Origin: a bacterium | Lineage (GTDB): Bacteria; Pseudomonadota; Gammaproteobacteria; Burkholderiales; Thiobacillaceae | Direction of reading: 5' to 3' | Assembly: GCA_009772925.1 (NCBI GenBank) | Contig: WOUQ01000001.1 | Coordinates: 124,001 to 188,000, forward strand | DNA: 64,000 nucleotides | Shown: positions 3,881 to 16,748 of the stretch, piece by piece | Layout: each line of letters begins with the position of its first letter | Numbering within the stretch: the stretch's first letter is position 1 | Made by a program: the position numbers and the translations under genes | Notes under the pieces: model-generated | What the model was told of the DNA's origin: nothing | The model's input: the letters and a program-made list of their open reading frames with translations, nothing else | The model's database searches: none

Positions 3881-4885
3881 ATGCGTCTGCGTTCTTCCTT
3901 GCTGGCCCTTGCCCTGGGCCTCGCCACCTTCACCGCCCAAGCCGCCGAACCCATCGTCATCAAGTTCGCCCACGTGGTGGCGCAGAACACGCCCAAGGGC
4001 AAGGCGGCGGATTACTTCAAGCAGCGCGCCGAGGCGCTGACCAAGGGCGCGGTGAAGGTGGAGGTTTACGCCAACAGCACCCTGTACAAGGACAAAGAGG
4101 AAATGGAGGCCCTGCAACTGGGCGCGGTGCAGATGCTGGCGCCGTCGCTGGCCAAGTTCGGCCCCCTGGGCGTGAAGGAATTCGAGGTCTTCGACCTGCC
4201 CTATATGTTCGACAACTACCAGGAACTCAATAAGGTCACCCAGGGCCCCATCGGCCGCGAACTGCTCAACCGCCTCGAACCCAAGGGCATCAAGGGCCTG
4301 GCTTTCTGGGACAACGGTTTCAAGTCGTTCTCCGCGAACAAGCCGCTGCGGACCCCGGCCGACTTCCGCGGCCAGAAGATGCGCATCCAGTCCTCCAAGG
4401 TGCTCGACGCGCAGATGCGCGCCCTCGGCGCCTTGCCCCAGGTGATGGCCTTCTCCGAGGTCTACCAGGCCCTGCAGACCGGCGTGGTGGACGGCACCGA
4501 GAACCCCATCTCCAACCTCTACACTCAGAAGATGCACGAGGTGCAGAAGCACCTGTCGCTGACCGAGCACGGCTACCTGGGCTACGCGGTGATCACCAAC
4601 AAGAAGTTCTGGGACGGCCTGCCCGCCAACATCCGGGCGCAGCTCGAACAGGCGTTGAAGGAATCCACCGAGTACGCCAACAAGATCGCCAAGCAGGAAA
4701 ACGACGAGTCCCTGGAGGCGGTGCGCAAGTCGGGCAAGACCACGATCTACACGCCCACCGCCGCCGAGAAGGCCGCCTTGAAGAAGGCCCTGGTCAGCGT
4801 GCACGAGAAGATGGACGACCGCCTGGGCGTCGAGATAGTGCAGCGCATCTACAAGGAAACCGGGTTCGATCCATCCAAGCTGTAA
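3881..4885 (+). CDS. dctP: TRAP transporter substrate-binding protein DctP
   Basis: Periplasmic binding protein of a tripartite ATP-independent transporter, 334 residues. A Sec signal peptide ends near AQA|AEP (about residue 22). The GTENPISN and HLSLTEHGYLGYAVI segments are typical of C4-dicarboxylate-binding DctP proteins, and the Arg in KMRIQSS matches the conserved carboxylate-binding arginine of the family. Preceded by GAGGGG about 6 nt before the ATG. It heads the dctP-dctQ-dctM unit; a stem-loop lies between it and dctQ. A close paralogue lies at 7119-8192. The ligand is likely a dicarboxylate or other organic acid, by family only. Confidence 0.92.
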   Translation: MRLRSSLLALALGLATFTAQAAEPIVIKFAHVVAQNTPKGKAADYFKQRAEALTKGAVKVEVYANSTLYKDKEEMEALQLGAVQMLAPSLAKFGPLGVKEFEVFDLPYMFDNYQELNKVTQGPIGRELLNRLEPKGIKGLAFWDNGFKSFSANKPLRTPADFRGQKMRIQSSKVLDAQMRALGALPQVMAFSEVYQALQTGVVDGTENPISNLYTQKMHEVQKHLSLTEHGYLGYAVITNKKFWDGLPANIRAQLEQALKESTEYANKIAKQENDESLEAVRKSGKTTIYTPTAAEKAALKKALVSVHEKMDDRLGVEIVQRIYKETGFDPSKL

Positions 4886-4929
4886 GCCCCGGCTTCACCC
4901 ACAAACCGACCGCGTCCCCTCGCCCCCGT

Positions 4930-4952
4930 CCATCCCGGCTCAGCCGGGATGG
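4930..4952 (+). other. Intercistronic stem-loop between dctP and dctQ
   Basis: CCATCCCGGC (4930-4939) and GCCGGGATGG (4943-4952) form a perfect 10-bp stem with a TCA loop and no following T-run. A hairpin after the binding-protein gene commonly stabilises the upstream mRNA so that more binding protein than membrane subunit is made; that role is inferred here. Confidence 0.6.
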
Positions 4953-4997
4953 GGAGCATGGGGTTGAGGGCGCCGGACACAGCCTCGGGATGCCGCT

Positions 4998-5717
4998 ATG
5001 TTCATGAAGATCCTCGATCACCTGGAGGAGATCTTCATCTCCCTCCTCATCGGCGCCGCCACGCTGATCACCTTCACCGCGGTGGTGCACCGCTACCTGG
5101 CCAGTTCAACCTGGATTCCGTCCGAGGCCGCGCAGGACTGGCTGATCCAGCTCAACCTGGCCTGGGCGCAGGAACTGACCATCATCCTGTTCGTGTGGAT
5201 GGCCAAGTTCGGCGCCGCCTACGGCGTGCGCACCGGCATCCACGTCGGCGTCGACGTGCTCATCAACCAGCTGAGCGACCGCAAGCGCGGCGTCTTCATC
5301 GTCTTCGGCCTGCTCGCGGGCGCCTTCTTCACCGGTGTGATCGGCACCCTGGGCGCTCATTTCGTCTGGGAGAACGGCGCCCATTACGCCTGGCTGACCT
5401 GGCGCGGCCTGGACGTCGGCGACATCCCCGAGGGGCCCACCACGCCCGACCTGGAATGGCCGACCTGGATCGTCTATTCGGCGATTCCCCTGGGTTCCTT
5501 CCTGATGTGCTTCCGTTTCCTGCAGGTGGCCTTGAGCTTCCTGCGCACCGGCGAACTGCCGCACCACGACCACGGCAAGGTGTCCGGGGTGGAGGACGAG
5601 GCGGTCCCGCCCAAGCCCGGCGAGGACGACCGCATCTACCGCATGGATGACGGCCTGCACCCGCATGAGCTGAAGGAACCGCTGCTGGGCGACGAGGACA
5701 AGGAGAAACGGACATGA
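4998..5717 (+). CDS. dctQ: TRAP transporter small permease DctQ
   Basis: Small membrane subunit of the TRAP transporter, 239 residues with four hydrophobic segments (about residues 10-32, 55-85, 97-122 and 155-182), as expected for DctQ. An unusually long hydrophilic acidic tail of about 50 residues (from about 188) follows the last helix and contains several His and Asp/Glu residues; its purpose is not evident. The stop overlaps the dctM start (ATGA), so the subunits are translationally coupled. It pairs with DctM in the inner membrane. Confidence 0.9.
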   Translation: MFMKILDHLEEIFISLLIGAATLITFTAVVHRYLASSTWIPSEAAQDWLIQLNLAWAQELTIILFVWMAKFGAAYGVRTGIHVGVDVLINQLSDRKRGVFIVFGLLAGAFFTGVIGTLGAHFVWENGAHYAWLTWRGLDVGDIPEGPTTPDLEWPTWIVYSAIPLGSFLMCFRFLQVALSFLRTGELPHHDHGKVSGVEDEAVPPKPGEDDRIYRMDDGLHPHELKEPLLGDEDKEKRT

Positions 5718-6997
5718 CCGAACTGATCATCTTCGGCCTGCTGGCCGCCCTCATGCTCACCGGCATGCCGATTTCCATCGCCCTCGGCCTGACGGTGCTG
5801 ACCTTCCTCTACACCCTGACCCAGGTCCCCATCGACGCGGTGGCCTTGAAGCTGTTCACCGGCATCGAGAAGTTCGAGATCATGGCCATCCCGTTCTTCA
5901 TCCTGGCCGGCAACTTCCTCACCCACGGCGGCGTCGCCAAGCGCATGATCCGCTTCGCCACCTCCCTGGTGGGGCACTGGCACGGCGGCCTCGGTCTCGG
6001 TGCGGTGTTGGCCTGCGCCCTGTTCGCGGCCGTGTCCGGCTCCAGCCCGGCCACCGTGGTGGCGATCGGCTCCATCCTGCTGCCGGCCATGGTCAAGGCC
6101 GGCTATCCCAGGCGCTTCGGCGCCGGCGTGGTGGCGAGTTCGGGCGCGCTGGGGATCCTCATCCCGCCGTCCATCGTCATGGTCATGTACGCGGTGTCCA
6201 CCAACAGCTCCATCGGCGCCCTGTTCATGGCTGGCGTCATCCCCGGCCTGGTGCTGGCCGCCATGCTGATGTTCACCACCTGGTACCGCGCCAAGAAGCA
6301 CGGCTATCCGCGTGAGCCGCGTGCCAACTGGGGCCAGCGCTGGAAGGCCTTCCGCGAGTCGGTCTGGGGGCTGCTGCTGATCGTAGTGGTGATGGGCGGC
6401 ATCTATTCCGGCCTGTTCACGCCCACCGAGGCGGCGGCCATGAGCGCGGTCTACGCCTTCATCGTGGTGGTGTTCGTGTACCGCGATTTCTCCATCCGCG
6501 ACGTGCCCAAGGTGCTGCTGGCCTCGGCCAACATGAGCGCGATGCTGCTGTACATCATCACCAACGCGGTGCTGTTCTCCTTCCTGCTGACGCACGAGAA
6601 CATCCCGCAGCAGATCTCGGACTGGATCGTTGCCAGCGGTCTGGGCGTGATTGGCTTCCTGATCGTGGTGAACGTGCTGCTGCTGGTCATGGGCAGCTTC
6701 ATGGAGCCCTCGTCCATCATCCTGATCACCGCGCCCATCCTGTTCCCCATCGCCATGGCCCTGGGCATCGACCCGGTGCACTTCGGCGTGATGATCACGG
6801 TGAACATGGAGATCGGCATGATCACGCCACCGGTGGGCCTCAACCTGTATGTGGCGAGCGGCATCAGCAAGCTGGGCCTGACCGAGATGTCCATCGCGGT
6901 ATGGCCGTGGCTGCTCACCATGCTGGTGTTCCTGATGATCGTCACCTACTACCCGCCCCTGTCGCTGTGGCTGCCGCGCACGCTGGGCATGATGTAG
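5714..6997 (+). CDS. dctM: TRAP transporter large permease DctM
   Basis: Large transport subunit, 427 residues with about a dozen hydrophobic segments spread over the whole length, the standard DctM size. Family-typical stretches include FFILAGNFLTHGGVAKR, SGSSPATVVAIGSI and the ITPPVGLNLYVASG region near the C terminus. It uses the ion gradient to drive uptake of substrate delivered by DctP. The start overlaps dctQ by 4 nt. A second binding-protein gene follows after 121 nt. Confidence 0.95.
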   Translation: MTELIIFGLLAALMLTGMPISIALGLTVLTFLYTLTQVPIDAVALKLFTGIEKFEIMAIPFFILAGNFLTHGGVAKRMIRFATSLVGHWHGGLGLGAVLACALFAAVSGSSPATVVAIGSILLPAMVKAGYPRRFGAGVVASSGALGILIPPSIVMVMYAVSTNSSIGALFMAGVIPGLVLAAMLMFTTWYRAKKHGYPREPRANWGQRWKAFRESVWGLLLIVVVMGGIYSGLFTPTEAAAMSAVYAFIVVVFVYRDFSIRDVPKVLLASANMSAMLLYIITNAVLFSFLLTHENIPQQISDWIVASGLGVIGFLIVVNVLLLVMGSFMEPSSIILITAPILFPIAMALGIDPVHFGVMITVNMEIGMITPPVGLNLYVASGISKLGLTEMSIAVWPWLLTMLVFLMIVTYYPPLSLWLPRTLGMM

Positions 6998-7118
6998 CAA
7001 GCGGATAGGCCGGCCGTTGCCTGACCGGGAGCGGTCGGGCGGCGGCGAGGTTCTGCTTGTCATCCTTGCCGGCGGGTCTAGGATCAATCATCCCTCCCGC
7101 ATCGAGGATGTCTTCGTC

Positions 7119-8192
7119 ATGTCACCGCGCGCAACCCTGTTTGCCCTGCTGCTGGGACTCGCCGCCGGCGCCGCCCAGGCGGCAGAGCCCATCGTCATCA
7201 AGTTCTCCCATGTGGTGGCGCCCGATACGCCCAAGGGCAAGGCCGCCGAATATTTTAAGAAACTGGTCGAGGAACGCAGCCGCGGCCGGGTCAAGGTGGA
7301 GGTGTATGCCGCCGGCCAGCTCTACCAGGACCGTGAGGAAATGGAGGCGCTGCGCCTGGGCGCGGTGCACATGCTGGCGCCGTCGCTGGCCAAGTTCGGG
7401 CCCCTGGGCGTGCACGCCTTCGAGCTGTTCGATCTGCCCTACATCTTCCCCAACCCGGAAACCCTGCATCGGGTGATGGACGGCGAAGTCGGCGCGCGGC
7501 TGTTCGCCCTGCTCGCGGAACGCGGCGTCAAGGGCCTGGCCTATTGGGACAACGGTTTCAAGCAGATGAGCGCCAATACCCCACTGCGCCGGGTGGAGGA
7601 TTTCCAGGGCCTGAAGATGCGCATCCAGTCCTCGCGGGTGATCGAGGCGCAGATGCGCGCCCTCGGCGCGCAGCCGCGGGTGATGGCGTTTTCCGACGCC
7701 TACGAGGCCTTGCGCCAGGGCGCGGTGGACGGCACCGAAAACCCCCTGTCGAATCTGGCCACGCAAAGGATGCACGAGGTGCAGAAGCACCTGACCCTGT
7801 CCGACCACGGTTACCTGGGCTACGCGGTCATCGTTAACAAGCGCTTCTGGGAAAGCCTGCCCGCCGACCTGCGCGCCATGCTGGAGGGCGCCATGCACTC
7901 CGCCACGGTGTTCGAGCGCGGCATTGCCCAGGAGGAGAACGACGCCGCGCTGGCCCGCGTCAAGGCCGCCGGCGGCACGCAGATCTACGTGCTGCCCTAC
8001 AAGGACCGCGTGATCTGGCAACAGGCCCTGCTGCCCGTGCATCGCGCTTTCGAGGACAAGATCGGCCGCGACCTGCTGCAGGCCGTGTACCGTGTGGCGG
8101 CCGAGGTGGAAAAGGAGCGTGCCGCTCGTCCCGATACGGCGACACCCAAGGACAAACCCGGTCCCATCCGGCCCCGGCCCGAGCGGCGCTGA
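7119..8192 (+). CDS. Second TRAP transporter binding protein (DctP paralogue)
   Basis: A 357-residue periplasmic binding protein closely similar to DctP at 3881 across the mature domain (shared GTENPLSN, HGYLGYAVIVNK and MRIQSS segments). I chose the ATG at 7119 because it begins a clean signal peptide ending at AQA|AEP and is preceded by GAGGA; a longer frame from TTG 7017 would put 34 unlikely residues before it. The C terminus carries about 30 extra Pro/Arg/Lys-rich residues absent from the first copy. It may supply the same DctQM with a different ligand. Confidence 0.9.
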   Translation: MSPRATLFALLLGLAAGAAQAAEPIVIKFSHVVAPDTPKGKAAEYFKKLVEERSRGRVKVEVYAAGQLYQDREEMEALRLGAVHMLAPSLAKFGPLGVHAFELFDLPYIFPNPETLHRVMDGEVGARLFALLAERGVKGLAYWDNGFKQMSANTPLRRVEDFQGLKMRIQSSRVIEAQMRALGAQPRVMAFSDAYEALRQGAVDGTENPLSNLATQRMHEVQKHLTLSDHGYLGYAVIVNKRFWESLPADLRAMLEGAMHSATVFERGIAQEENDAALARVKAAGGTQIYVLPYKDRVIWQQALLPVHRAFEDKIGRDLLQAVYRVAAEVEKERAARPDTATPKDKPGPIRPRPERR

Positions 8193-8299: not shown

Positions 8300-8392
8300 C
8301 CAATTAACGCCTCCCGCCGCCGGTCATCACGACGCCCGACGCTGCCAACTTCTCCGGCGGCCGTGCATTTCCTCCCTTACGAGGAGCTGATC

Positions 8393-8977
8393 GTGAACGC
8401 GGCAACCGCAATTCCCTCCACCTCCAGCCGTCCCGGCTTTCTCGGTGAAGTCATGGACAGGACGCCGGGCGACAACCGGCTCGACCTGTGCATCCAGTGC
8501 GGCTCCTGCGGCGGTTCCTGTCCAGCCGGGCGGGAAATGGAGCACACCCCGCGCCGGCTGTTCGCGCTGATCCGCGCCGACGAGCGGGAACAGGTGCTGC
8601 GCAGCAACGCCCCCTGGTACTGCGTGTCCTGCTACTACTGCACCGTGCGATGTCCGCAGGAGGTGCACATCACCGACCTGATGTACACGCTGAAGGCCAT
8701 GGCGATCGAGGCGGGGCTCTACCACGACGCCTCGCTGCCGGATTTCTCCGAGACCTTCGTGGACTACGTCGAGAAATACGGTCGCAGCTTCGAGCTGGGC
8801 ATCGCCACCCGCTTCAATCTTCGCCATCACCCCTTGAGCCTGGCGGGCATGGCGCCCCTGGGCCTGGGCATGCTGAAACGCGGGCGCATGGACCTGACGC
8901 CGCACCGCATCGACGGCATGGCGCAACTCACGGCCATCCTGGAAAAAGCCAAGGCACTCGAGGGGGGATTGCAATGA
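8393..8977 (+). CDS. hdrC: Heterodisulfide reductase subunit C-like iron-sulfur protein
   Basis: A 194-residue electron-transfer subunit. Two ferredoxin-type motifs bind [4Fe-4S] clusters: Cys33/36/39 with Cys43, and Cys77/80/83 with Cys87. The helical C-terminal part matches HdrC, which passes electrons between HdrA and HdrB. I chose GTG at 8393 because GAGGAG lies 6 nt upstream; a GTG at 8363 would add ten residues without a visible binding site. First gene of the hdr-mvh unit; its stop overlaps the hdrB start (ATGA). Confidence 0.9.
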   Translation: MNAATAIPSTSSRPGFLGEVMDRTPGDNRLDLCIQCGSCGGSCPAGREMEHTPRRLFALIRADEREQVLRSNAPWYCVSCYYCTVRCPQEVHITDLMYTLKAMAIEAGLYHDASLPDFSETFVDYVEKYGRSFELGIATRFNLRHHPLSLAGMAPLGLGMLKRGRMDLTPHRIDGMAQLTAILEKAKALEGGLQ

Positions 8978-9939
8978 AAGCGCTGTTCTACCCGGGCTGT
9001 TCCATGCAGAAGAACGCGCGGCCCTATCTGGATTCCTTGCTGGCGATCAGGGAGGTCATCGACCTGGAACTCCAGGAAATCGAGGATTGGAACTGCTGCG
9101 GGGCCACCGAGTACATGTCGGTGCACCGGGTTGCCGCCCACTCCCTGGTGGGCCGCAACCTGGCCCTGGCGCGGCAGCAGGCGCGGGATACCGACCTGCT
9201 CACCGCCGGCTGCAGCGCCTGCTACCTGAACCTGGCCAAGACCGACACGCAGATGCGGGAAGACGCCGGCCTCAAGAATACGGTCAACCAGGCCCTGGCC
9301 GCGGGCGGGCTGGAGTACAAGCCCGGTTCCATCAAGGTCCGCCATCTGCTGGATCTGGTTTGCCACGACATCGGTTACGACGCGGTGAAGGCCAGGGTGG
9401 TGAAACCGCTGCACGGCCTCAAGGTGGCGGCCTATTACGGCTGCCAGGTGGTGCGTCCGGATTACGACGGCCGCTGGGACAGCCACGAGCATCCCACTTC
9501 GATGGACAAGCTGCTCGCCGCGCTGGGTGCCGAGCCGGTGGACTGGGCGCTGAAGACCCAATGCTGCGGCGGCCACATGACGGTGATCGGCCCGGACGTT
9601 GCCTTCGGGCTGATCCGCCGTCTGATCCACGGCGCCCGGGAAGCCGGCGCCGACCTGGTGGTGACCCTGTGCCCCATGTGCCAGTTGAACCTGGACGCCT
9701 ACCAGGTGGAGATGAACAAGCATTTCCACACCGACTACCAGGTGCCGGTGCTGTATTTCACGCAGTTGATGGGCCTGGCCTTCGGCAAGAAAGCGAAGGA
9801 ACTGGGTATCGGCAAGGAGTTCGTCGACGCCGCGCCGGCCCTGGCCAAGATCCAGGCCGAGGCGCCCAAGGTGGCCGAGACCAAGCGCAAGCGTCGCCCG
9901 AAGCCGGGTGACGCGCTGCCCATGCCGGGGATGGAGTAA
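8974..9939 (+). CDS. hdrB: Heterodisulfide reductase subunit B-like protein with two CCG domains
   Basis: The 321-residue catalytic-type subunit of the Hdr complex. Both cysteine-rich CCG domains are intact: Cys9, Cys41-Cys42, Cys80 and Cys83 in the first; Cys157, Cys197-Cys198, Cys233 and Cys236 in the second. In methanogen HdrB these domains bind two noncubane [4Fe-4S] clusters that split the CoM-S-S-CoB disulfide. The last 45 residues are Lys/Arg/Pro-rich and variable. Since coenzyme B is not expected in a proteobacterium, the physiological disulfide or other acceptor is unknown. Coupled to hdrC by a 4-nt overlap; hdrA begins 3 nt after its stop. Confidence 0.9.
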   Translation: MKALFYPGCSMQKNARPYLDSLLAIREVIDLELQEIEDWNCCGATEYMSVHRVAAHSLVGRNLALARQQARDTDLLTAGCSACYLNLAKTDTQMREDAGLKNTVNQALAAGGLEYKPGSIKVRHLLDLVCHDIGYDAVKARVVKPLHGLKVAAYYGCQVVRPDYDGRWDSHEHPTSMDKLLAALGAEPVDWALKTQCCGGHMTVIGPDVAFGLIRRLIHGAREAGADLVVTLCPMCQLNLDAYQVEMNKHFHTDYQVPVLYFTQLMGLAFGKKAKELGIGKEFVDAAPALAKIQAEAPKVAETKRKRRPKPGDALPMPGME

Positions 9940-9942
9940 GCC

Positions 9943-11985
9943 ATGAGCGATCAACAGAAGCCTGAAAGAATCGGCGTCTACGTCTGCCACTGCGGCACCA
10001 ACATCGCCGGGGTCGTCGACGTGGAAGCCGTGGCCCACTTCGCCGCCGAGGACCTGAAGGACCGCGGCGTGGTGCTGGCGCGGGACTACACCTTCATGTG
10101 CTCCGTGGCCGGCCAGGAACTCATCGAGCAGGACATCCACGAACAGCAATTGACCCGCGTCGTGGTCGCCGCCTGTTCGCCCCACCTGCACGAGAAGACC
10201 TTCCGCGGCGTGTGCGAGCGCTCCGGCATGAACCCCTATCTCTCCGAGATGGCCTCCATCCGCGAGCACGTGGCCTGGGTGCATACCGACAAGGTCGCCG
10301 CCACGGCGAAGGCCAAGGCCATCGTCAGCGGCACCGTGGAGCGGGTGCTGAAGAACGATCCGCTGGAAGCCATCCGCGTGCCCATCGACGCCCAGACCCT
10401 GGTGGTGGGCGGCGGCATCGCCGGCATCCAGGCCGCGCTGGAAGTGGCGGAGGCCGGTTATGAAGTCATCCTGGTCGAGCGCGAGGCTTCCCTGGGCGGC
10501 CACATGGCGCAGTTCGACAAGACCTTCCCCACCCTGGACTGCGCCGCCTGCATCCTGACGCCGAAGATGGCGGCGGCCGGCTCGCATCCGAAGATCCACC
10601 TGTTCACCTGGAGCGAGGTGGAGAAGGTGGAAGGCTTCGTCGGCAACTACACGGTGACGGTGAAGAAGAAGCCGCGCTACGTGGACGAGGACGTCTGCAC
10701 CGGCTGCGGCATCTGCGTGGAGAAGTGCCCCATCCTGGTGGTGGACGACAAGTTCGAGGCCGGCATCGGCTACCGCAAGGCGATCTACTGGCCGTTCGCC
10801 CAGGCGGTGCCCAATCTGCCCGTTCTGGACACGGAGACCTGCACCTACTACATCGGTGGCAAGGGGGGGTGCCGGGCCTGCGAGAAATTCTGCCCGACGG
10901 TGCCCAACTCCATCCTGTTCGACCAGAAGGAAGAGCGTGTCACCCTGCGTGTCGGCAACATCGTCCTCGCCACCGGCTGGGATCTGTTCGACGCGCGCCG
11001 CATTCCGCAATATGGCTATGGCCGCCTGGCCAACGTTTTCACCAGTCTGGAACTGGAGCGCATGTGCAATGCGGCCGGCCCCACCGGCGGCAAGGTGGTG
11101 ATGCGCGACGGCAAGAGCGCACCGCAACGCGTCGCGATCGTGCACTGCGTCGGCAGCCGCGACCGCAACTACAACCGCCACTGCTCCGCCATCTGCTGCA
11201 TGCAGAGCCTGAAGACCGCGCACCTGGTGAAGGAGCGCACCGGCGCCGAGGTCTACAACTTCTACATCGACATCCGCACGCCCGGCAAGGAATACGACGA
11301 GTTCTACCAACGGGTGCTGGACGACGGCATCCATTTCGTGCGCGGCAAGGTCGCCGAGATCACCGACATTCCCTTCGATCCGGCCGAGGCGAGCCGCAAT
11401 GGCGCCGGCACCCTCTACGTCCAGGTGGAGGACACCCTGGCCGGTATGCAGCGTCGCATCCCGGTGGATATGGTGGTGCTTTCCGCCGGCCTGGAACCGC
11501 GCCGCGACAGCGCGGAAGTGGGCAAGACCTTCGGCATCGCCTGTTCCAGCAACGGCTGGTTCATCGAGAAGCACGCCAAGATGGACCCCATCGCCACCAT
11601 GACCGAGGGTGTCTTCATCGCCGGCTGCGCCGCCGGGCCCAAGGACATTCCCGCCAGCGTCTCGCAAGGCTCAGCGGCTGCGGCGCGGGTGCTGAACTAC
11701 ATCCGCCAGGGCGAGCTGGCCCTGGAGCCGGTGCGCGCCAGCGTACTGGCCGAGCAGTGCTCCGGCTGCCGCCTGTGCAACGGCCTGTGCCCGTTCAACG
11801 CCATCTCCTTCGACGCGGCGCGCAAGGTCACCGAAATCAACGCCGCCCTCTGCCAGGGCTGCGGCACCTGTGTGGCCGCCTGTCCGGCCGGCGCCATCCA
11901 GGGTACCGGCTTCAGCAACGAGCAGTTGTTCGCGCAGATCGAAGGCTTGTTGCGGGACTTCAGCCGAGCACCGGAGGTCGTATGA
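9943..11985 (+). CDS. hdrA: Heterodisulfide reductase subunit A-like FAD/iron-sulfur protein
   Basis: The 680-residue flavoprotein core of the complex. An N-terminal iron-sulfur domain starts with CHC (Cys15, Cys17); a thioredoxin-reductase-like FAD domain has GGGIAG near residue 156. An inserted ferredoxin domain has a standard motif from Cys252 and a second, oddly spaced C-X9-C-X2-C-X3-C motif. The C terminus has two [4Fe-4S] motifs starting at Cys606 and Cys637. In methanogen HdrA the FAD performs electron bifurcation, splitting hydrogen-derived electrons between disulfide and ferredoxin; bifurcation here is inferred from architecture. It overlaps mvhD by ATGA. Confidence 0.92.
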   Translation: MSDQQKPERIGVYVCHCGTNIAGVVDVEAVAHFAAEDLKDRGVVLARDYTFMCSVAGQELIEQDIHEQQLTRVVVAACSPHLHEKTFRGVCERSGMNPYLSEMASIREHVAWVHTDKVAATAKAKAIVSGTVERVLKNDPLEAIRVPIDAQTLVVGGGIAGIQAALEVAEAGYEVILVEREASLGGHMAQFDKTFPTLDCAACILTPKMAAAGSHPKIHLFTWSEVEKVEGFVGNYTVTVKKKPRYVDEDVCTGCGICVEKCPILVVDDKFEAGIGYRKAIYWPFAQAVPNLPVLDTETCTYYIGGKGGCRACEKFCPTVPNSILFDQKEERVTLRVGNIVLATGWDLFDARRIPQYGYGRLANVFTSLELERMCNAAGPTGGKVVMRDGKSAPQRVAIVHCVGSRDRNYNRHCSAICCMQSLKTAHLVKERTGAEVYNFYIDIRTPGKEYDEFYQRVLDDGIHFVRGKVAEITDIPFDPAEASRNGAGTLYVQVEDTLAGMQRRIPVDMVVLSAGLEPRRDSAEVGKTFGIACSSNGWFIEKHAKMDPIATMTEGVFIAGCAAGPKDIPASVSQGSAAAARVLNYIRQGELALEPVRASVLAEQCSGCRLCNGLCPFNAISFDAARKVTEINAALCQGCGTCVAACPAGAIQGTGFSNEQLFAQIEGLLRDFSRAPEVV

Positions 11986-12458
11986 GTGATTCCACGTTCG
12001 AGCCCGTCATCATCGGCTTCACCTGCAACTGGTGTTCCTACCGCGCCGCCGACCTGGCCGGCACGGCGCGTATCAAGTACCCGCCCAACGTGCGCCTGAT
12101 CCGCGTCATGTGCAGCGGCCGCATCGATCCCACCTTCGTGCTCAAGGCCCTGTCCGAGGGCGCCGACGGCGTGCTCATCGCCGGCTGCCATCCGGGCGAG
12201 TGCCATTACCTGGAACAGAACTACAAGGCCCTGCGGCGGCATCGTCTGTTGCAGAAGACCCTGGCCCAGTTCGGCATCGAACCTGCGCGGGTGCGTCTGA
12301 CCTGGGCCAGCGCCGCCGAGGGCGCCTTGTTCGCCCAGGAGATCGCGGAAATGGTGGACGAGGTGAAGGCGCTGGGGCCGCTGAACTGGCCGGCGCGGCC
12401 GATGCCGATGGCCACGGCGCCCGCCGAGATTCCCGTGTTGAGCGAGGAGGCGGCATGA
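11982..12458 (+). CDS. mvhD: MvhD-like [2Fe-2S] subunit linking hydrogenase to Hdr
   Basis: A 158-residue protein of the MvhD/FlpD (delta subunit) family, which carries electrons from hydrogenase to HdrA. Five cysteines fit the family pattern: Cys15 and Cys18 in FTCNWCSY, Cys44 in VMCSG, and Cys69 and Cys74 in GCHPGECHY. The central LIAGCHPGECHY stretch is strongly diagnostic. The last 20 residues are a Pro/Ala tail. Its overlap with both hdrA and mvhG (ATGA at each junction) supports one physical complex. Confidence 0.92.
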   Translation: MSDSTFEPVIIGFTCNWCSYRAADLAGTARIKYPPNVRLIRVMCSGRIDPTFVLKALSEGADGVLIAGCHPGECHYLEQNYKALRRHRLLQKTLAQFGIEPARVRLTWASAAEGALFAQEIAEMVDEVKALGPLNWPARPMPMATAPAEIPVLSEEAA

Positions 12459-13441
12459 AACCCAAGTTCGCCATGTACTGGGCCGCTTCCTGCGGCGGCT
12501 GCGAGATCGCGGTGCTCAACATCGACGAGAAGGTGCTGGATCTGGACGCGAATTTCGACGTGGCCTTCTGGCCGGCGGCCATGGACGCCAAGTACAAGGA
12601 CGTGGAGGCCATGGAGGACCAGTCCATCCTGGTCACCCTGTTCAACGGCAGCATCCGCACCGACGAGAACGAGCACATGGCCAGGCTGCTGCGGCGCAAG
12701 TCGAAGCTGCTGGTGGCCTTCGGTTCCTGCGCCAACGAGGGCTGCATTCCCGGCCTGGCCAACCTGTCCAGCCGCGAGAGCATCTTCGAACGCGCCTACA
12801 CCAGTCCGAGCACCGAAAACCCGCAGCATCTGCGCCCGCTGGTTTCCTGCCAGGTGCCGGAAGGCACCCTGACCCTGCCGCCCCTGCAACCGGTGATCCG
12901 TACCCTGGATCAGGTCGTCGAGGTGGATTACCACGTGCCCGGCTGTCCGCCGGAATCGCATCAGATCGCCGCCGTGCTGGACGTACTCATCCAGGTGGTG
13001 AAGGGCGAGGCCGAGTTGCCGCCGAAAGGCGCGGTGCTGGGCGCCGGCAATTCCACGGTGTGCGACGAGTGCGCGCGCAAGCGCGACGTGAAGTTGATCG
13101 ACAGGTTGTCCCGCATCCAGGACCTGCCGCAACTGAACACCACCGATTGCCTGCTGGAACAGGGCCTCCTCTGCGCCGGTCCGGCCACCCGCAGCGGCTG
13201 CAATTCGCGCTGCCCGAATGTCGGCGCGCCCTGCATCGGCTGCTACGGCGCCGCCCCCGGCGTGCTCGACCAGGGCGCGCGGCTGATGAGCGCCATCGCC
13301 TCGGTGGTGGACGAGAACGAGCCGGACGCCATCGACCGGGTGCTGGACGGCCTTCCCGACCCGGCCGGCAGCTTCTACCGCTTCAGCCTGGCGCACTCGT
13401 TGCTCAGGGCCAACCGGGAAGCGTTCGACGACAAACCGTAA
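12455..13441 (+). CDS. mvhG: [NiFe] hydrogenase small subunit (MvhG-like)
   Basis: The 328-residue small subunit carries the electron-relay clusters. Cys13 and Cys16 (ASCGGCE) start the proximal-cluster motif, followed by FGSCANEGC, VPGCPP and a C-terminal cysteine-rich region (about residues 204-270) for the medial and distal clusters. There is no twin-arginine signal peptide and no C-terminal helix, so the enzyme is cytoplasmic, as in group 3 hydrogenases. Coupled to mvhD by a 4-nt overlap, but separated from mvhA by 114 nt containing a palindromic element. Confidence 0.92.
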   Translation: MKPKFAMYWAASCGGCEIAVLNIDEKVLDLDANFDVAFWPAAMDAKYKDVEAMEDQSILVTLFNGSIRTDENEHMARLLRRKSKLLVAFGSCANEGCIPGLANLSSRESIFERAYTSPSTENPQHLRPLVSCQVPEGTLTLPPLQPVIRTLDQVVEVDYHVPGCPPESHQIAAVLDVLIQVVKGEAELPPKGAVLGAGNSTVCDECARKRDVKLIDRLSRIQDLPQLNTTDCLLEQGLLCAGPATRSGCNSRCPNVGAPCIGCYGAAPGVLDQGARLMSAIASVVDENEPDAIDRVLDGLPDPAGSFYRFSLAHSLLRANREAFDDKP

Positions 13442-13447
13442 TCACCC

Positions 13448-13537
13448 CCCTCCCCCGCAAGCGGGGGAGGGGCCGGGGGAGAGGGAAATCGCTGCAAACG
13501 CCCCTCTCCCTAACCCTCTCCCGCCTGCGGGAGAGGG
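13448..13537. repeat. Composite two-hairpin palindromic repeat between mvhG and mvhA
   Basis: Two perfect 11-bp hairpins: CCCTCCCCCGC/GCGGGGGAGGG (13448-13458 and 13461-13471) and CCCTCTCCCGC/GCGGGAGAGGG (13514-13524 and 13527-13537), separated by G-rich, spacer and C-rich segments. The same architecture lies in frame inside acnA (58164-58271) and in altered form after flgL. There is no T-run, so this is not a classical terminator, but the hairpins could alter the mvhG:mvhA ratio. Confidence 0.8.
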
Positions 13538-13555
13538 GACCGAACGGAGAACGAC

Positions 13556-15013
13556 ATGCAACGCATCAGCATCGATCCCCTGACCCGGCTGGAAGGCCAC
13601 GGCAAGATCGAGATCTTCCTGGACGACGCCGGCGACGTCGCCAACGCCTATCTGCAAGTGCCGGAACTGCGCGGCTTCGAGCGCTTCTGCGTGGGCCGCC
13701 CGGTGGAGGAAATGCCCACCCTGACCAACCGCATCTGCGGCGTCTGCCCGGAAGCCCACCACATGGCCGCTGCCAAGGCCGCCGACGCGGTCTATGGCCT
13801 CACCCCGCCGCCGGCAGGCCGGAAATTGCGCGAGTTGCTCTATTCCGCCTTCTTCTTTGCCGACCACACCACCCACTTTTTCATCCTCGGCGGTCCGGAC
13901 TTCATCATGGGGCCGGATACCCCGGTGGCCGAGCGCAACATCCTGGGCGTGATCAAGAAGGTGGGCCTGGAAATCGGCGGCAAGGTGATCCAGGCGCGCA
14001 AATTCGGCCACACCACGGTGGAAATCATCGGCGGCCGCAAGGTGCACCCCTGCACCGCCGTACCGGGTGGGATGACCAAGGCGATATCCGAAGCGGAACG
14101 CCAGGAAATCGAGAAGATGGGCCGCTGGGCAGTGGAGTTCGGCCAGTTCGCCCTGCAGGCCTTCCATGACCTGGTGCTCGGCAACAAGGAGTATCTCGAC
14201 CTGATCCTGGGTGATGCCTACACCCACAAGACCTATTACATGGGCCTGGTGGATGCGCAGAACAAAGTGAATTTCTACGACGGCCGCGTGCGCATCGTCG
14301 GCCCCGACGGTGCTTTGCACGGGATGTACTCGCCCAACGAATACACCGACTGGATCGCCGAGCGTGTGGAACCCTGGAGTTATCTGAAATTTCCCTATCT
14401 CAAGAAAGTGGGCTGGAAGGGTTTCGTCGACGGCGCCGACTCCGGCGTCTACATGGCTACGCCGCTTTCCCGCCTGAATGTCTCGGAAGGCATGGCCACG
14501 CCCCTGGCCCAGGCCGAGTACGAGAAGTTCGTCGCCACCCTGGGCAAGCCGGCGCACAGCCGCCTGGCCATCCACTGGGCACGCCTGATCGAGCTGCTCT
14601 ACGCCGCCGAGCGCTGGGTGGAACTGGCCACCGATCCGGAAATCACCTCGCCCGAGGTGCGCGCGTTGCCGACGAAGCCGCCGACGGAAGGCATCGGCAT
14701 CGTCGAGGCACCGCGCGGCACGCTGACCCACCACTACCGCACCGATGAAAAAGGCCTGCTCACCATGGTCAACCTGGTGGTGGGCACCACCAACAACAAC
14801 GCCGCCATGGGCATGTCCATCAAGAAGGCGGCGCAGTCCTTTATCCAGGCCGGCACGGTGGTCACGGAGGGCCTGCTGAACCGCATCGAGATGGCCTACC
14901 GCGCCTACGACCCCTGCCTGGGCTGCGCCACCCATGCCCTGCCGGGCAAGATTCCGCTGCAGGTCAGCATCCACGACGCTGCGGGCGAGGTGATCGAGGT
15001 GGTGCGCGGATGA
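13556..15013 (+). CDS. mvhA: [NiFe] hydrogenase large subunit (MvhA-like, group 3c type)
   Basis: The 485-residue subunit holds the NiFe(CN)2CO active site. The L1 motif RICGVCPEAHH has Cys61 and Cys64; the L2 motif DPCLGCATH has Cys454 and Cys457. About 25 residues follow His460, the peptide normally removed by a specific maturation protease, whose gene overlaps directly downstream. Association with hdrABC and mvhD indicates group 3c (Hdr-linked, cytoplasmic). Hyp accessory genes are not in the window and must lie elsewhere. An AGGAG-like AACGGAGAA precedes the ATG. Confidence 0.94.
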   Translation: MQRISIDPLTRLEGHGKIEIFLDDAGDVANAYLQVPELRGFERFCVGRPVEEMPTLTNRICGVCPEAHHMAAAKAADAVYGLTPPPAGRKLRELLYSAFFFADHTTHFFILGGPDFIMGPDTPVAERNILGVIKKVGLEIGGKVIQARKFGHTTVEIIGGRKVHPCTAVPGGMTKAISEAERQEIEKMGRWAVEFGQFALQAFHDLVLGNKEYLDLILGDAYTHKTYYMGLVDAQNKVNFYDGRVRIVGPDGALHGMYSPNEYTDWIAERVEPWSYLKFPYLKKVGWKGFVDGADSGVYMATPLSRLNVSEGMATPLAQAEYEKFVATLGKPAHSRLAIHWARLIELLYAAERWVELATDPEITSPEVRALPTKPPTEGIGIVEAPRGTLTHHYRTDEKGLLTMVNLVVGTTNNNAAMGMSIKKAAQSFIQAGTVVTEGLLNRIEMAYRAYDPCLGCATHALPGKIPLQVSIHDAAGEVIEVVRG

Positions 15014-15474
15014 TCGCCACCACCCTGGTCGTCGGTCTCGGCAATCCAATCCTCGGCGACGACGGGGTGGGCTGGCGGGTGGCGGAACGGGTGCGCGAGG
15101 CGATCGACGATCCCGAGGTGGATGTGCTGTGCCTCTCCCTGGGCGGACTGTCGCTGGTCGAGCACCTGGCCGGCTATCGCCGGGCGATCATCGTCGATGC
15201 CATGACCACCGGCGCCGCGCCCGGCAGCCTGCACCGCTTCGCCGCCCGCGACTTGGACGAGCTGGGTGTGCAGCACACCGCCTCCGTGCACGACCTGAGC
15301 CTGCGCTCCGCCCTGGCCTTCGCCCGGGAGTTGGGCCTGGATCTGCCGGACGACATCCGCGTGGTGGGGGTGGAAACCCGGCCGGAATTCGAGTTCGGAG
15401 AAGGGCTGGGCGAGGCGGTGGGGCGGGCGGTACCGCTCGCCGTGGCGGTGGTGATGGACGCCCTGCAAAGCTGA
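15010..15474 (+). CDS. Hydrogenase maturation endopeptidase (HyaD/HycI family)
   Basis: A 154-residue M52-family protease that cleaves the C-terminal peptide of the large subunit after nickel insertion. GLGNPILGDDGVGWRV at the N terminus supplies the first metal-sensing Asp; the Asp in IIVDAM and the His in HTASVHDLSL fit the other two nickel-binding positions. The start overlaps mvhA by 4 nt, consistent with dedicated processing of MvhA. Last gene of the cluster. Confidence 0.92.
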   Translation: MIATTLVVGLGNPILGDDGVGWRVAERVREAIDDPEVDVLCLSLGGLSLVEHLAGYRRAIIVDAMTTGAAPGSLHRFAARDLDELGVQHTASVHDLSLRSALAFARELGLDLPDDIRVVGVETRPEFEFGEGLGEAVGRAVPLAVAVVMDALQS

Positions 15475-15587: not shown

Positions 15588-16748
15588 ATGCAGTCCGGTC
15601 CCCGCGAAATCGTCACCCCCTTCCGCCCCATTCCCCTCGACGTGCCCGAGGGCATGAAGCCCAACGAGTTCTTCAACAGCACCGAGAACCTCAACGACCT
15701 GGTGCACAACAACGGCCTGCTGCAGAACCCGGAAGGGCTGCTGCTCTACCGCAAGGCCCTGGGCCACAGCAACGAGTTCGACACTTCGATCATCTACAAC
15801 ACCTCGCGCTCGATCCTCGACCCGCTCGGCCGCCCGGTGCGCCGCACCCAGGTGCCGGAGGCGGTGAAGAACGTGTGGAACCGGATGAACCAGATCCTGT
15901 TCGACTACATGCTGGAACAGTATCCGGACCCGGACAAACACCTGGTCCTCGCCGGCGAGGCCAGCCTCGACGCCACCTGGCCCCTGACTTCGCCGGGCGT
16001 GCCCAGCATCCGCATGCTGCACAATCACTTCATCGTCTTCGACAAGCAGGCGCTGCGCGACGCCCCCCTCGCCGACGCCAGCAATCCCAACCTCACCGAC
16101 GGCGGCCAGCATTCCCTGTTCCAGCAATACATGCGCGACGTCTATCGCGCCTTCTTCGACGAACTGGACCTGGAAATCCTGCGCCCCTGCACGCCGGGCT
16201 CCTGCAAGATCGCCATCACCGGCTACCCGCAGGGACTGCCGAGCTGGGAAGTGACCGGCGGGGCGGAGTCCCTGAAGGAAGTCCGCTTCTGGAAGGAATA
16301 CGACACCATCCTCAAGGGCTTCATCGACTTCTACCGCGCCTTCTTCAGCCAGGTATCCACGCGCAACGCGCCCCTGCCCAGGGACATCTACTTCCCGGCC
16401 CTGGTGGAGGAAAAACTTCAGTTCAACAACGACTTCCTGAAGTCCGCCAAGATGGTGCGCGACCGCTGCATCAAGGACGCCAAGTACGCCAACTCCATCC
16501 GCTGGCAGCCCGCCTTCAAGCAACTCATCTACCGCAACGACGCCGGCAAATTGATCGTCACCATCAGCCAGAACTCCATCGGCAACGCCATCACCGAACT
16601 GCTGGGCGTGGTCGTCAAGCGCGTGCCGGATGCCGAGGCCTATGGCCAAGCCGAGCCCGCCCTCATCGAGAAGCTGCTGGAGGCGCGTCGCCGCCTGGTC
16701 GATGCCGATCTGGGCGAGGGCATCGCGACACCGCACTGGGGCGCGTGA
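15588..16748 (+). CDS. Conserved-looking protein of unknown function
   Basis: A 386-residue, apparently soluble cytosolic protein with no signal peptide or membrane helix. It is rich in aromatic residues and has balanced, structured-looking composition throughout, with segments such as MLHNHFIVFDKQ (about 145-156), RPCTPGSCKIAITGYPQG and ISQNSIGNAITELLG. I could not match it to a family. It stands alone, 113 nt after the hydrogenase protease and 63 nt before the GGDEF-EAL gene, on the same strand as both. A 6-bp hairpin (16754-16768) follows it. Confidence 0.75.
   Translation: MQSGPREIVTPFRPIPLDVPEGMKPNEFFNSTENLNDLVHNNGLLQNPEGLLLYRKALGHSNEFDTSIIYNTSRSILDPLGRPVRRTQVPEAVKNVWNRMNQILFDYMLEQYPDPDKHLVLAGEASLDATWPLTSPGVPSIRMLHNHFIVFDKQALRDAPLADASNPNLTDGGQHSLFQQYMRDVYRAFFDELDLEILRPCTPGSCKIAITGYPQGLPSWEVTGGAESLKEVRFWKEYDTILKGFIDFYRAFFSQVSTRNAPLPRDIYFPALVEEKLQFNNDFLKSAKMVRDRCIKDAKYANSIRWQPAFKQLIYRNDAGKLIVTISQNSIGNAITELLGVVVKRVPDAEAYGQAEPALIEKLLEARRRLVDADLGEGIATPHWGA

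Follow-up and report, generated by a model that had tools for sequence, protein, structure and literature searches.

Does a bacterium of the Thiobacillaceae possess the machinery by which methanogens couple H2 oxidation to the reduction of ferredoxin and of the disulfide of coenzymes M and B (CoM-S-S-CoB), and if so, which acceptor takes the place of that disulfide? The question is raised by seven adjacent genes in a 64,000-nucleotide stretch of contig WOUQ01000001.1 (hereafter the window), which a first-pass annotation, made from the letters alone, had read as hdrC-hdrB-hdrA-mvhD-mvhG-mvhA followed by a gene for a hydrogenase maturation protease. That reading stands, as the identities agree across Pfam, NCBIfam and the comparison with chains of the Protein Data Bank (PDB), and all seven genes lie on the plus strand where they had been placed, at 8393-15474. 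All six HdrABC-MvhAGD subunit genes are present and linked. We consider it likely that their products form, in the cytoplasm, an HdrABC-MvhAGD complex that depends on H2 and belongs to the bacterial branch of group 3c. In it, HdrA would bifurcate electrons to ferredoxin and to an acceptor other than CoM-S-S-CoB at HdrB; such a complex probably splits the electrons of H2 to yield a very strong reductant. The genes, their order, the ligand and marker residues, the fold predicted for HdrB, the family placement and the genome context are established here.

The seven reading frames are all open (Table 1), and neighbouring genes share 4 bases at four of the six junctions, with a 3-base gap between hdrB and hdrA and a 114-base gap between mvhG and mvhA. 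Archaeal Hdr/Mvh subunits are the best PDB matches for all six structural subunits. HdrC, in whose sequence the two [4Fe-4S] motifs CIQCGSCGGSCP and CVSCYYCTVRCP can be read, matches Fer4_8 (E value 1.9e-09) and 5odc_C (9.6e-17), while HdrB matches CCG in two stretches (1.8e-24; best PDB match 3.7e-46). HdrA has domains of the type that binds flavin adenine dinucleotide (FAD) as well as Fer4 domains, as had been noted from the letters, and matches HdrA chains down to 3.1e-197. MvhD is recognized by FlpD/MvhD (1.1e-53) and resembles 8rvu_F (9.2e-50), MvhG by Oxidored_q6 (1.4e-21) and 5odc_E (3.8e-55), and MvhA by NiFeSe_Hases (2.7e-31) and 5odc_F (4.5e-122). The protease exceeds the TIGR00072 cut-off (120.4 versus 47.45 bits), and the MvhA tail, which extends 25 residues past the last motif His, seems to fit this adjacent maturation enzyme. 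In four comparisons, the ratio of nonsynonymous to synonymous substitution rates (dN/dS) was 0.07-0.33 for the six core subunits and 0.21-0.49 for the protease, suggesting that the seven genes are under purifying selection and functional. A scan for promoters and terminators returned sites no more frequent than in shuffled sequences, and the sole match of an Rfam search was a tRNA.

Table 1. Genes and inverted repeat of the hdr-mvh locus, in window coordinates
Feature	Position	Strand	Remarks
hdrC	8393..8977	+	GTG start, alternative in-frame GTG at 8363; putative electron relay; two [4Fe-4S] motifs
hdrB	8974..9939	+	two CCG domains; pair of non-cubane clusters, predicted to be catalytic
hdrA	9943..11985	+	FAD-binding, predicted bifurcating subunit
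mvhD	11982..12458	+	separate iron-sulfur subunit, putative linker from hydrogenase to HdrA
mvhG	12455..13441	+	[NiFe]-hydrogenase small subunit
Inverted repeat in mvhG-mvhA gap	13447..13538	.	38-nt arms; incidental; presumably REP-like (repetitive extragenic palindromic)
mvhA	13556..15013	+	group 3c-type [NiFe]-hydrogenase large subunit
Hydrogenase maturation protease	15010..15474	+	HycI 2.3e-13 (Pfam)

The first-pass annotation had made its reading depend beforehand on MvhA falling in hydrogenase group 3c, and this placement is upheld by a tree and by PDB scores. The L1 (ICGVCPEAH) and L2 (AYDPCLGCATH) motifs of MvhA match those given for group 3c (L1 ICGxCxxxH, L2 AYDPCxxCATH) in the available passages of Poudel et al. 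(PMC6085437); the HoxH-like protein of the same genome reads AFDPCLSCATH at L2. Against PDB chains, MvhA scored 411.2 bits with 5odc_F, 395.9 with HydL (7t2r_D), 369.2 and 365.2 with two archaeal chains and 360.4 with a HoxH. Scores were far lower (142.6 bits at best) for the chains that we take to represent groups 3a, 3b and 1. Among families, VhuA reached 389.4 bits and the next one 164.1. The tree comprised 91 rows, none of them from groups 3a, 3b or 1, and was built with a quick method that gives support from the Shimodaira-Hasegawa-like approximate likelihood ratio test (SH-aLRT) only, with no bootstrap. In it, the window groups with the six betaproteobacterial rows in a single clade (SH-aLRT 100) inside a bacterial clade (100). 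Adding the three archaeal 3c chains gives the next larger clade (98), which excludes HydL and two HoxH rows. The fork uniting the Betaproteobacteria with most Chloroflexota rows received 85, unstarred, and the reference branches are long and were flagged by the tree tool. On this evidence MvhA belongs with group 3c, a placement qualified by those long branches.

Residues around the flavin point to the proposed function of HdrA. An alignment of 69 sequences (the window and 68 of 70 extracted HdrA proteins, two under 600 aa being left out) keeps E372 and K424 throughout; counted from a PDB alignment, these are the equivalents of E356 and K409, the FAD N5 pair of Methanothermococcus thermolithotrophicus. 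Cysteines matching C386, C399, C403 and C404, presumably cluster ligands, are likewise kept in 69/69. In the passages available of PMC12054007, E356 and K409 are proposed to separate bifurcating from non-bifurcating proteins.

The claim that both CCG domains of HdrB are intact is borne out by alignment as well as by the two Pfam stretches, as all cluster cysteines are kept. Among 63 sequences (the window and 62 of 65 extracted HdrB proteins, three under 260 aa being left out), C41, C42, C80, C83, C157, C197, C198, C233 and C236 are invariant and C9 is found in 62. These ten positions correspond to two non-cubane [4Fe-4S] clusters, including the bridging Cys83 and Cys236, which align with positions 81 and 234 of the methanogen protein. 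Such bridging cysteines are tied to catalysis, and the non-catalytic relative EtfD is coordinated differently, according to the part of PMC13083937 that was available. HdrB is moreover predicted to fold as methanogen HdrB does: an AlphaFold model from 42 sequences (mean predicted local distance difference test score, pLDDT, 90.4) superposes on 5odc_B with a root mean square deviation (rmsd) of 1.8 and a template modelling (TM) score of 0.85 by query length and 0.94 by target length, compared with an rmsd of 9.0 and a TM score of 0.56 by query length for EtfD (9ojn).

Two positions set HdrB apart from its methanogen counterparts. The residue after Cys157 is Met (48), Gln (12) or Leu (3) across the 63 branch sequences, whereas the five solved CoB-CoM HdrB chains, of which 8rvu and 8rvv are near-identical, all have His after the aligned cysteine. 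The second CCG reads CCGGHM in 56 sequences, CCSGHM in three, CCGGSL in two and CCGGAL and CCGASL in one each, in contrast to CCGAGGG in the solved chains; window HdrB thus has YYGCQ and CCGGHM where the solved chains have HYGCH and CCGAGGG. Furthermore, HdrB falls below both curated CoB-CoM cut-offs (TIGR03288, 207.7 versus 345.15 bits; NF041780, 91.4 versus 450). The missing His beside a cluster cysteine makes CoM-S-S-CoB an unlikely substrate, in line with what the first-pass annotation had surmised, and to our knowledge coenzymes M and B would not be expected in such bacterial hosts. Together with the missed cut-offs, the residue differences imply that the branch probably has its own substrate, one that Chloroflexota and betaproteobacterial HdrB probably share.

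We infer complex formation, coupled reduction by bifurcation, its direction, the use of ferredoxin and the nature of the acceptor from these features, as follows. H2 would be oxidized at the [NiFe] site of MvhA, and its electrons would reach the HdrA FAD by way of MvhG and the MvhD cluster and be split there. One electron would go on to ferredoxin via the ferredoxin domains of HdrA, and HdrC would relay the other to the non-cubane cluster pair of HdrB, where a disulfide (or a related S-S bond or persulfide) other than CoM-S-S-CoB may be reduced. Reduced ferredoxin could then serve Rnf or the 2-oxoacid:ferredoxin oxidoreductases of the host.

In the host genome, NCBIfam cut-offs are exceeded by RuBisCO, dsrA, a DsrC-family protein, dsrK, rnfC and two ccoN, and the host resembles Thiobacillaceae with its RuBisCO, reverse Dsr, QmoAB-HdrCB, Rnf and two cbb3 oxidases. 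Ferredoxin for CO2 fixation, as the first-pass annotation had suggested, does not fit this inventory: the Calvin cycle needs no ferredoxin, and given RuBisCO such a supply is unnecessary. Nitrogenase was rejected as a ferredoxin sink, as a strong nifH match is not general among the eight operon genomes (strong in G007, G015 and G019, short and partial in G005, weak in G000, G003, G020 and G030), and its lack from the host genome argues against nitrogen fixation as the use of ferredoxin. Rnf and 2-oxoacid:ferredoxin oxidoreductases are likelier users than CO2 fixation. On contig C22, an intact 1654-aa fused 2-oxoacid:ferredoxin oxidoreductase (L137, 3136-8100) is encoded between rnfB, identified by reading, and rnfC; in L012, another operon locus, a pyruvate:ferredoxin-type oxidoreductase of 1201 aa (open frame, POR domain) is encoded divergently about 450 bases upstream of hdrC. 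A second 2-oxoacid:ferredoxin oxidoreductase gene of the host, of the pyruvate:ferredoxin type and on contig C25 (L139, 2478-6187), reads as two overlapping frames and is either a pseudogene or an assembly error.

Related loci were read as the best 80 of 586 confirmed ones, of which six are betaproteobacterial (MvhA 81-96% identical to that of the window), 72 are from Chloroflexota (72-78%) and one each is from Desulfobulbaceae and Armatimonadota. The first-pass annotation had proposed to look for the same gene order in relatives; 56 of the 80 carry the same seven genes compactly in this order, which excludes a chance assembly of the gene set. Eighteen are cut by the locus end under the rule of the script, four (L056, L060, L073, L084) have the genes in order but with a gap or a protease further away, and L047 and L078 have no hdrB match. 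The host was correctly called a proteobacterium: the matching loci L007-L012 are betaproteobacterial and come from five genomes of the same genus, recorded as Thiobacillus denitrificans FI88_66_23, Hydrogenophilales 28-61-23, Gallionellaceae STA_18 and under two broader names, and from one of another genus in the family, Thiobacillus sp. UBA3361. The mvhG-mvhA gap holds a similar palindrome in L007 and L008 and a different one in L009 and L011, and is 3 bases long in L010 and L012.

Matches of at least 81% identity occur in 8 of 101 relatives, 69 of which have some hydrogenase match, and in 8 of 117 family genomes. These eight carriers are seven members of the genus, the window included, and one of another genus; 23 genomes of the same genus are among the 101. 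An even sample of the order gave 2/399, both of the window's genus, and a phylum sample 5/398 at E below 1e-130, numbers that may be undercounts because only some candidates were scored per genome. Four other Pseudomonadota genomes (61-63% identity) carry mvhG-mvhA-protease, followed by hdrA-mvhD in three from other families (L147, L149 and L150, in G130, G153 and G244), and the fourth contig stops after the protease. Among seven genomes, operon identities mostly track those of aconitase, with one discordance (MvhA 92% for G000-G030 and 86% for G000-G015; aconitase 83% and 91%). A recent transfer among the betaproteobacterial hosts was therefore rejected, and the data fit better with acquisition further back in time, followed by losses or relocation; the gene set looks old in the family and often lost or moved, with flanks that vary between loci. 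A plasmid search with HdrA returned three records, the sole one covering most of HdrA at 45% identity.

L022, L048, L063 and L065 have HdrB and HdrC at 42-45% and 35-43% identity to those of the window, yet HdrA at 68-72%, and their HdrCB acceptor module looks exchanged. In the Chloroflexota loci L078 (1021-6284) and L047 (1527-6495), CCG/Fe-S proteins stand upstream of hdrA-mvhDGA instead of HdrB; L078 additionally encodes a protein with an ETF domain there and, by reading, another that is ETF-like. Such module exchange elsewhere in the family suggests an interchangeable acceptor side.

How does the operon relate to known systems? It shares its six structural subunits with HdrABC-MvhAGD of methanogens (5odc of M. 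thermolithotrophicus; 8rvu of Methanothermobacter marburgensis), along with the Glu/Lys and Cys positions of HdrA, the bridging cysteines of HdrB and the L1 and L2 motifs of MvhA, whereas it differs from them in the HdrB residues described above and in the second inserted cluster motif of HdrA, which is C-x9-C-x2-C-x3-C here and C-x2-C-x2-C-x3-C in the methanogen chains. The group 3c HdrABC-MvhADG loci of Chloroflexota have the same gene order, and most have the same HdrB signature, but they differ in host and neighbours, and several have a divergent or missing HdrB. NiFe-HydABCSL, which we take to be defined by HydABC subunits beside hydrogenase genes, is another type, and no HydABC subunit was recognized among the genes of 8393-15474 or, by reading, among their neighbours. 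A QmoA-QmoB-HdrC-HdrB cluster on contig C22 of the host (Qmo labels by reading) likewise places an HdrC/HdrB-type module beside HdrA-like flavoproteins, but no hydrogenase or MvhD gene was seen in it and its HdrB is 38% identical to that of the window; the type is known as HdrAACB/QmoABHdrCB in the passages available of PMC6397845. The sHdr arrangement, defined there as hdrCBA-hyp-hdrCB, also starts with hdrC-hdrB-hdrA, whereas the window has neither hyp nor a second hdrCB, and mvhD-mvhG-mvhA follows hdrA instead. No sHdr cluster was read around the CCG matches of the host genome, in a search that also missed DsrK on contig C27 and thus leaves the absence unproven.

Several observations weigh against the bifurcating, H2-dependent complex that we favour. 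None of the six structural subunits reaches its NCBIfam cut-off, as only the protease does: HdrA scores 800.1 bits against 1100, HdrB falls short by the TIGR03288 margin given above, and MvhA stays far below the VhuA cut-off of 800. The VhuA model was built for methanogen Vhu, and the miss therefore speaks against a Vhu equivalog and not against group 3c. For MvhA, the NAD-linked HydL chain almost equals 5odc_F in score, and the HoxH chain is not far behind. Around the three hdrA-mvhD loci of other Pseudomonadota, no hdrB or hdrC match was found in the 9-16 kb read, so HdrBC coupling is not universal in the wider family. A POR match is present in 52/61 relatives, with or without the operon, and thus has no specific link to it, while NifH-family matches in the host genome are weak only (best Fer4_NifH, 3.7e-7). 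Bifurcation, moreover, requires a sufficiently positive acceptor, and the literature passages covered contain no biochemistry of the bacterial branch.

The same genes could be explained otherwise. Run backwards, the complex would oxidize thiols and reduced ferredoxin and release H2 by confurcation, serving as a redox valve when oxygen or nitrate is low. The ferredoxin could come from 2-oxoacid:ferredoxin oxidoreductases and Rnf, and the H2 could be recycled by two further hydrogenases of the host, one HoxYH-like (grouping with HoxH in the tree) and one on contig C75, to which we presumptively give the labels group 1 and Isp-type. A fermentation role of this kind is assigned to the group 3c complex of another bacterium in the available part of PMC7509429. 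Direction is not readable from sequence, but for a lithoautotroph with RuBisCO, reverse Dsr and cbb3 oxidases H2 would be an obvious donor, and we regard reversal as unlikely. That the genes are mis-binned or decayed, as Chloroflexota DNA wrongly assembled here or a pseudogene island, could be read into the 72-78% MvhA identity with Chloroflexota and the palindrome in the mvhG-mvhA gap. It is, however, scarcely credible given an operon G+C content of 0.65-0.67 within the window range of 0.63-0.70, downstream neighbours common to L010, transporter genes and a next downstream gene common to L007, the single clade of the seven betaproteobacterial MvhA rows, divergence that mostly tracks aconitase, open frames throughout and low dN/dS.

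Two further explanations concern what HdrB reduces. In keeping with the sulfur-related disulfide that the first-pass annotation had allowed for, HdrB might take as substrate a sulfur carrier of the host's sulfur oxidation, the simplest candidate being DsrC in disulfide or trisulfide form, and so connect H2 with reverse Dsr. The genome does have a dsr operon, whose DsrC carries two Cys, and DsrC-family genes occur in 7/7 betaproteobacterial hosts searched (of eight known), but in only 4/20 other hosts, some of whose genomes may be incomplete, although the HdrB cluster cysteines and the non-His residue are uniform across the branch; nor was any dsr gene seen in the gene lists of the six betaproteobacterial loci. 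DsrC was accordingly rejected as a universal acceptor and is unlikely to be that of the whole branch; it is possible as a host-specific one, and the proposal as it stands is doubtful. The 3.2-Mb host genome has eight DsrC/TusE-family matches (contigs C22, C26 and C27), only some of which have the C-terminal Cys of DsrC (by reading). Alternatively, HdrBC may feed a non-disulfide acceptor (a quinone, fumarate-type or other redox partner), as proteins like SdhE or EtfD do. HdrB scores 200.3 bits with the SdhE model, close to its score with the CoB-CoM HdrB model and likewise below the cut-off, and in L047 and L078 other CCG proteins precede hdrA, in one case accompanied by a protein with an ETF domain. 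Nevertheless, all cysteines for open non-cubane clusters are kept, the HdrB model fits 5odc_B far better than EtfD, and no membrane subunit is among the seven genes, which together render such an acceptor rather improbable.

The favoured H2-dependent bifurcating complex would be a further member of a described bacterial 3c branch dominated by Chloroflexota. An MvhA clade of Chloroflexi and Proteobacteria is already reported in the passages available of Poudel et al. (PMC6085437), which makes the find less surprising than the first-pass annotation had implied. Among the papers listed by searches of an open-access library, none could be recognized by title or start of abstract as describing the operon in Betaproteobacteria, and the available parts of PMC6397845, on sulfur oxidizers, and PMC10945355, on groundwater hydrogenases, contain no 3c complex. 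The same passages of Poudel et al. report Mvh from obligate anaerobes, in view of which the host is unusual. COX1-family proteins, which bear on that report, were found in 13/14 hosts searched, comprising 7/7 betaproteobacterial (of eight known) and 6/7 others (taken from the 20 searched for DsrC), and two of the three in the host genome are cbb3 oxidases, although carrying an oxidase is no proof that the complex functions in air. If the prediction for the complex is correct, oxidase-bearing lithoautotrophy would include flavin-based bifurcation from H2. A conserved, compact operon in relatives of culturable Thiobacillus lets the question of the bacterial HdrBC substrate be asked directly. We tentatively add the unlikely reading that in oxidase-bearing sulfur oxidizers with RuBisCO, H2 and a sulfur-carrier disulfide (DsrC or its kin) might together make low-potential ferredoxin for Rnf, with an exchangeable HdrBC on a constant H2-HdrA core; sulfur chemistry would then drive H2-based ferredoxin reduction in an aerobe-type cell.

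Genes flanking the operon in the window were also considered. Tripartite ATP-independent periplasmic (TRAP) transporter genes (DctP, Q and M) occupy 3881-8192 together with another gene of the DctP family, which comes after them and directly before hdrC, and a 386-aa protein with no Pfam match up to E 5 and no NCBIfam match is encoded at 15588-16748, 99% identical in L007 and 91% in L010. Neither was retained as an operon member: among the six betaproteobacterial loci, the TRAP genes lie upstream in L007 alone and the 386-aa gene lies downstream in L007 and L010 alone, L008 showing only about 1 kb past the protease. Of the 80 best loci, 38 encode a member of one family of small proteins; in Chloroflexota locus L013 (12066-12536), this member has a cyclic-nucleotide-binding domain and is encoded shortly past the protease gene.

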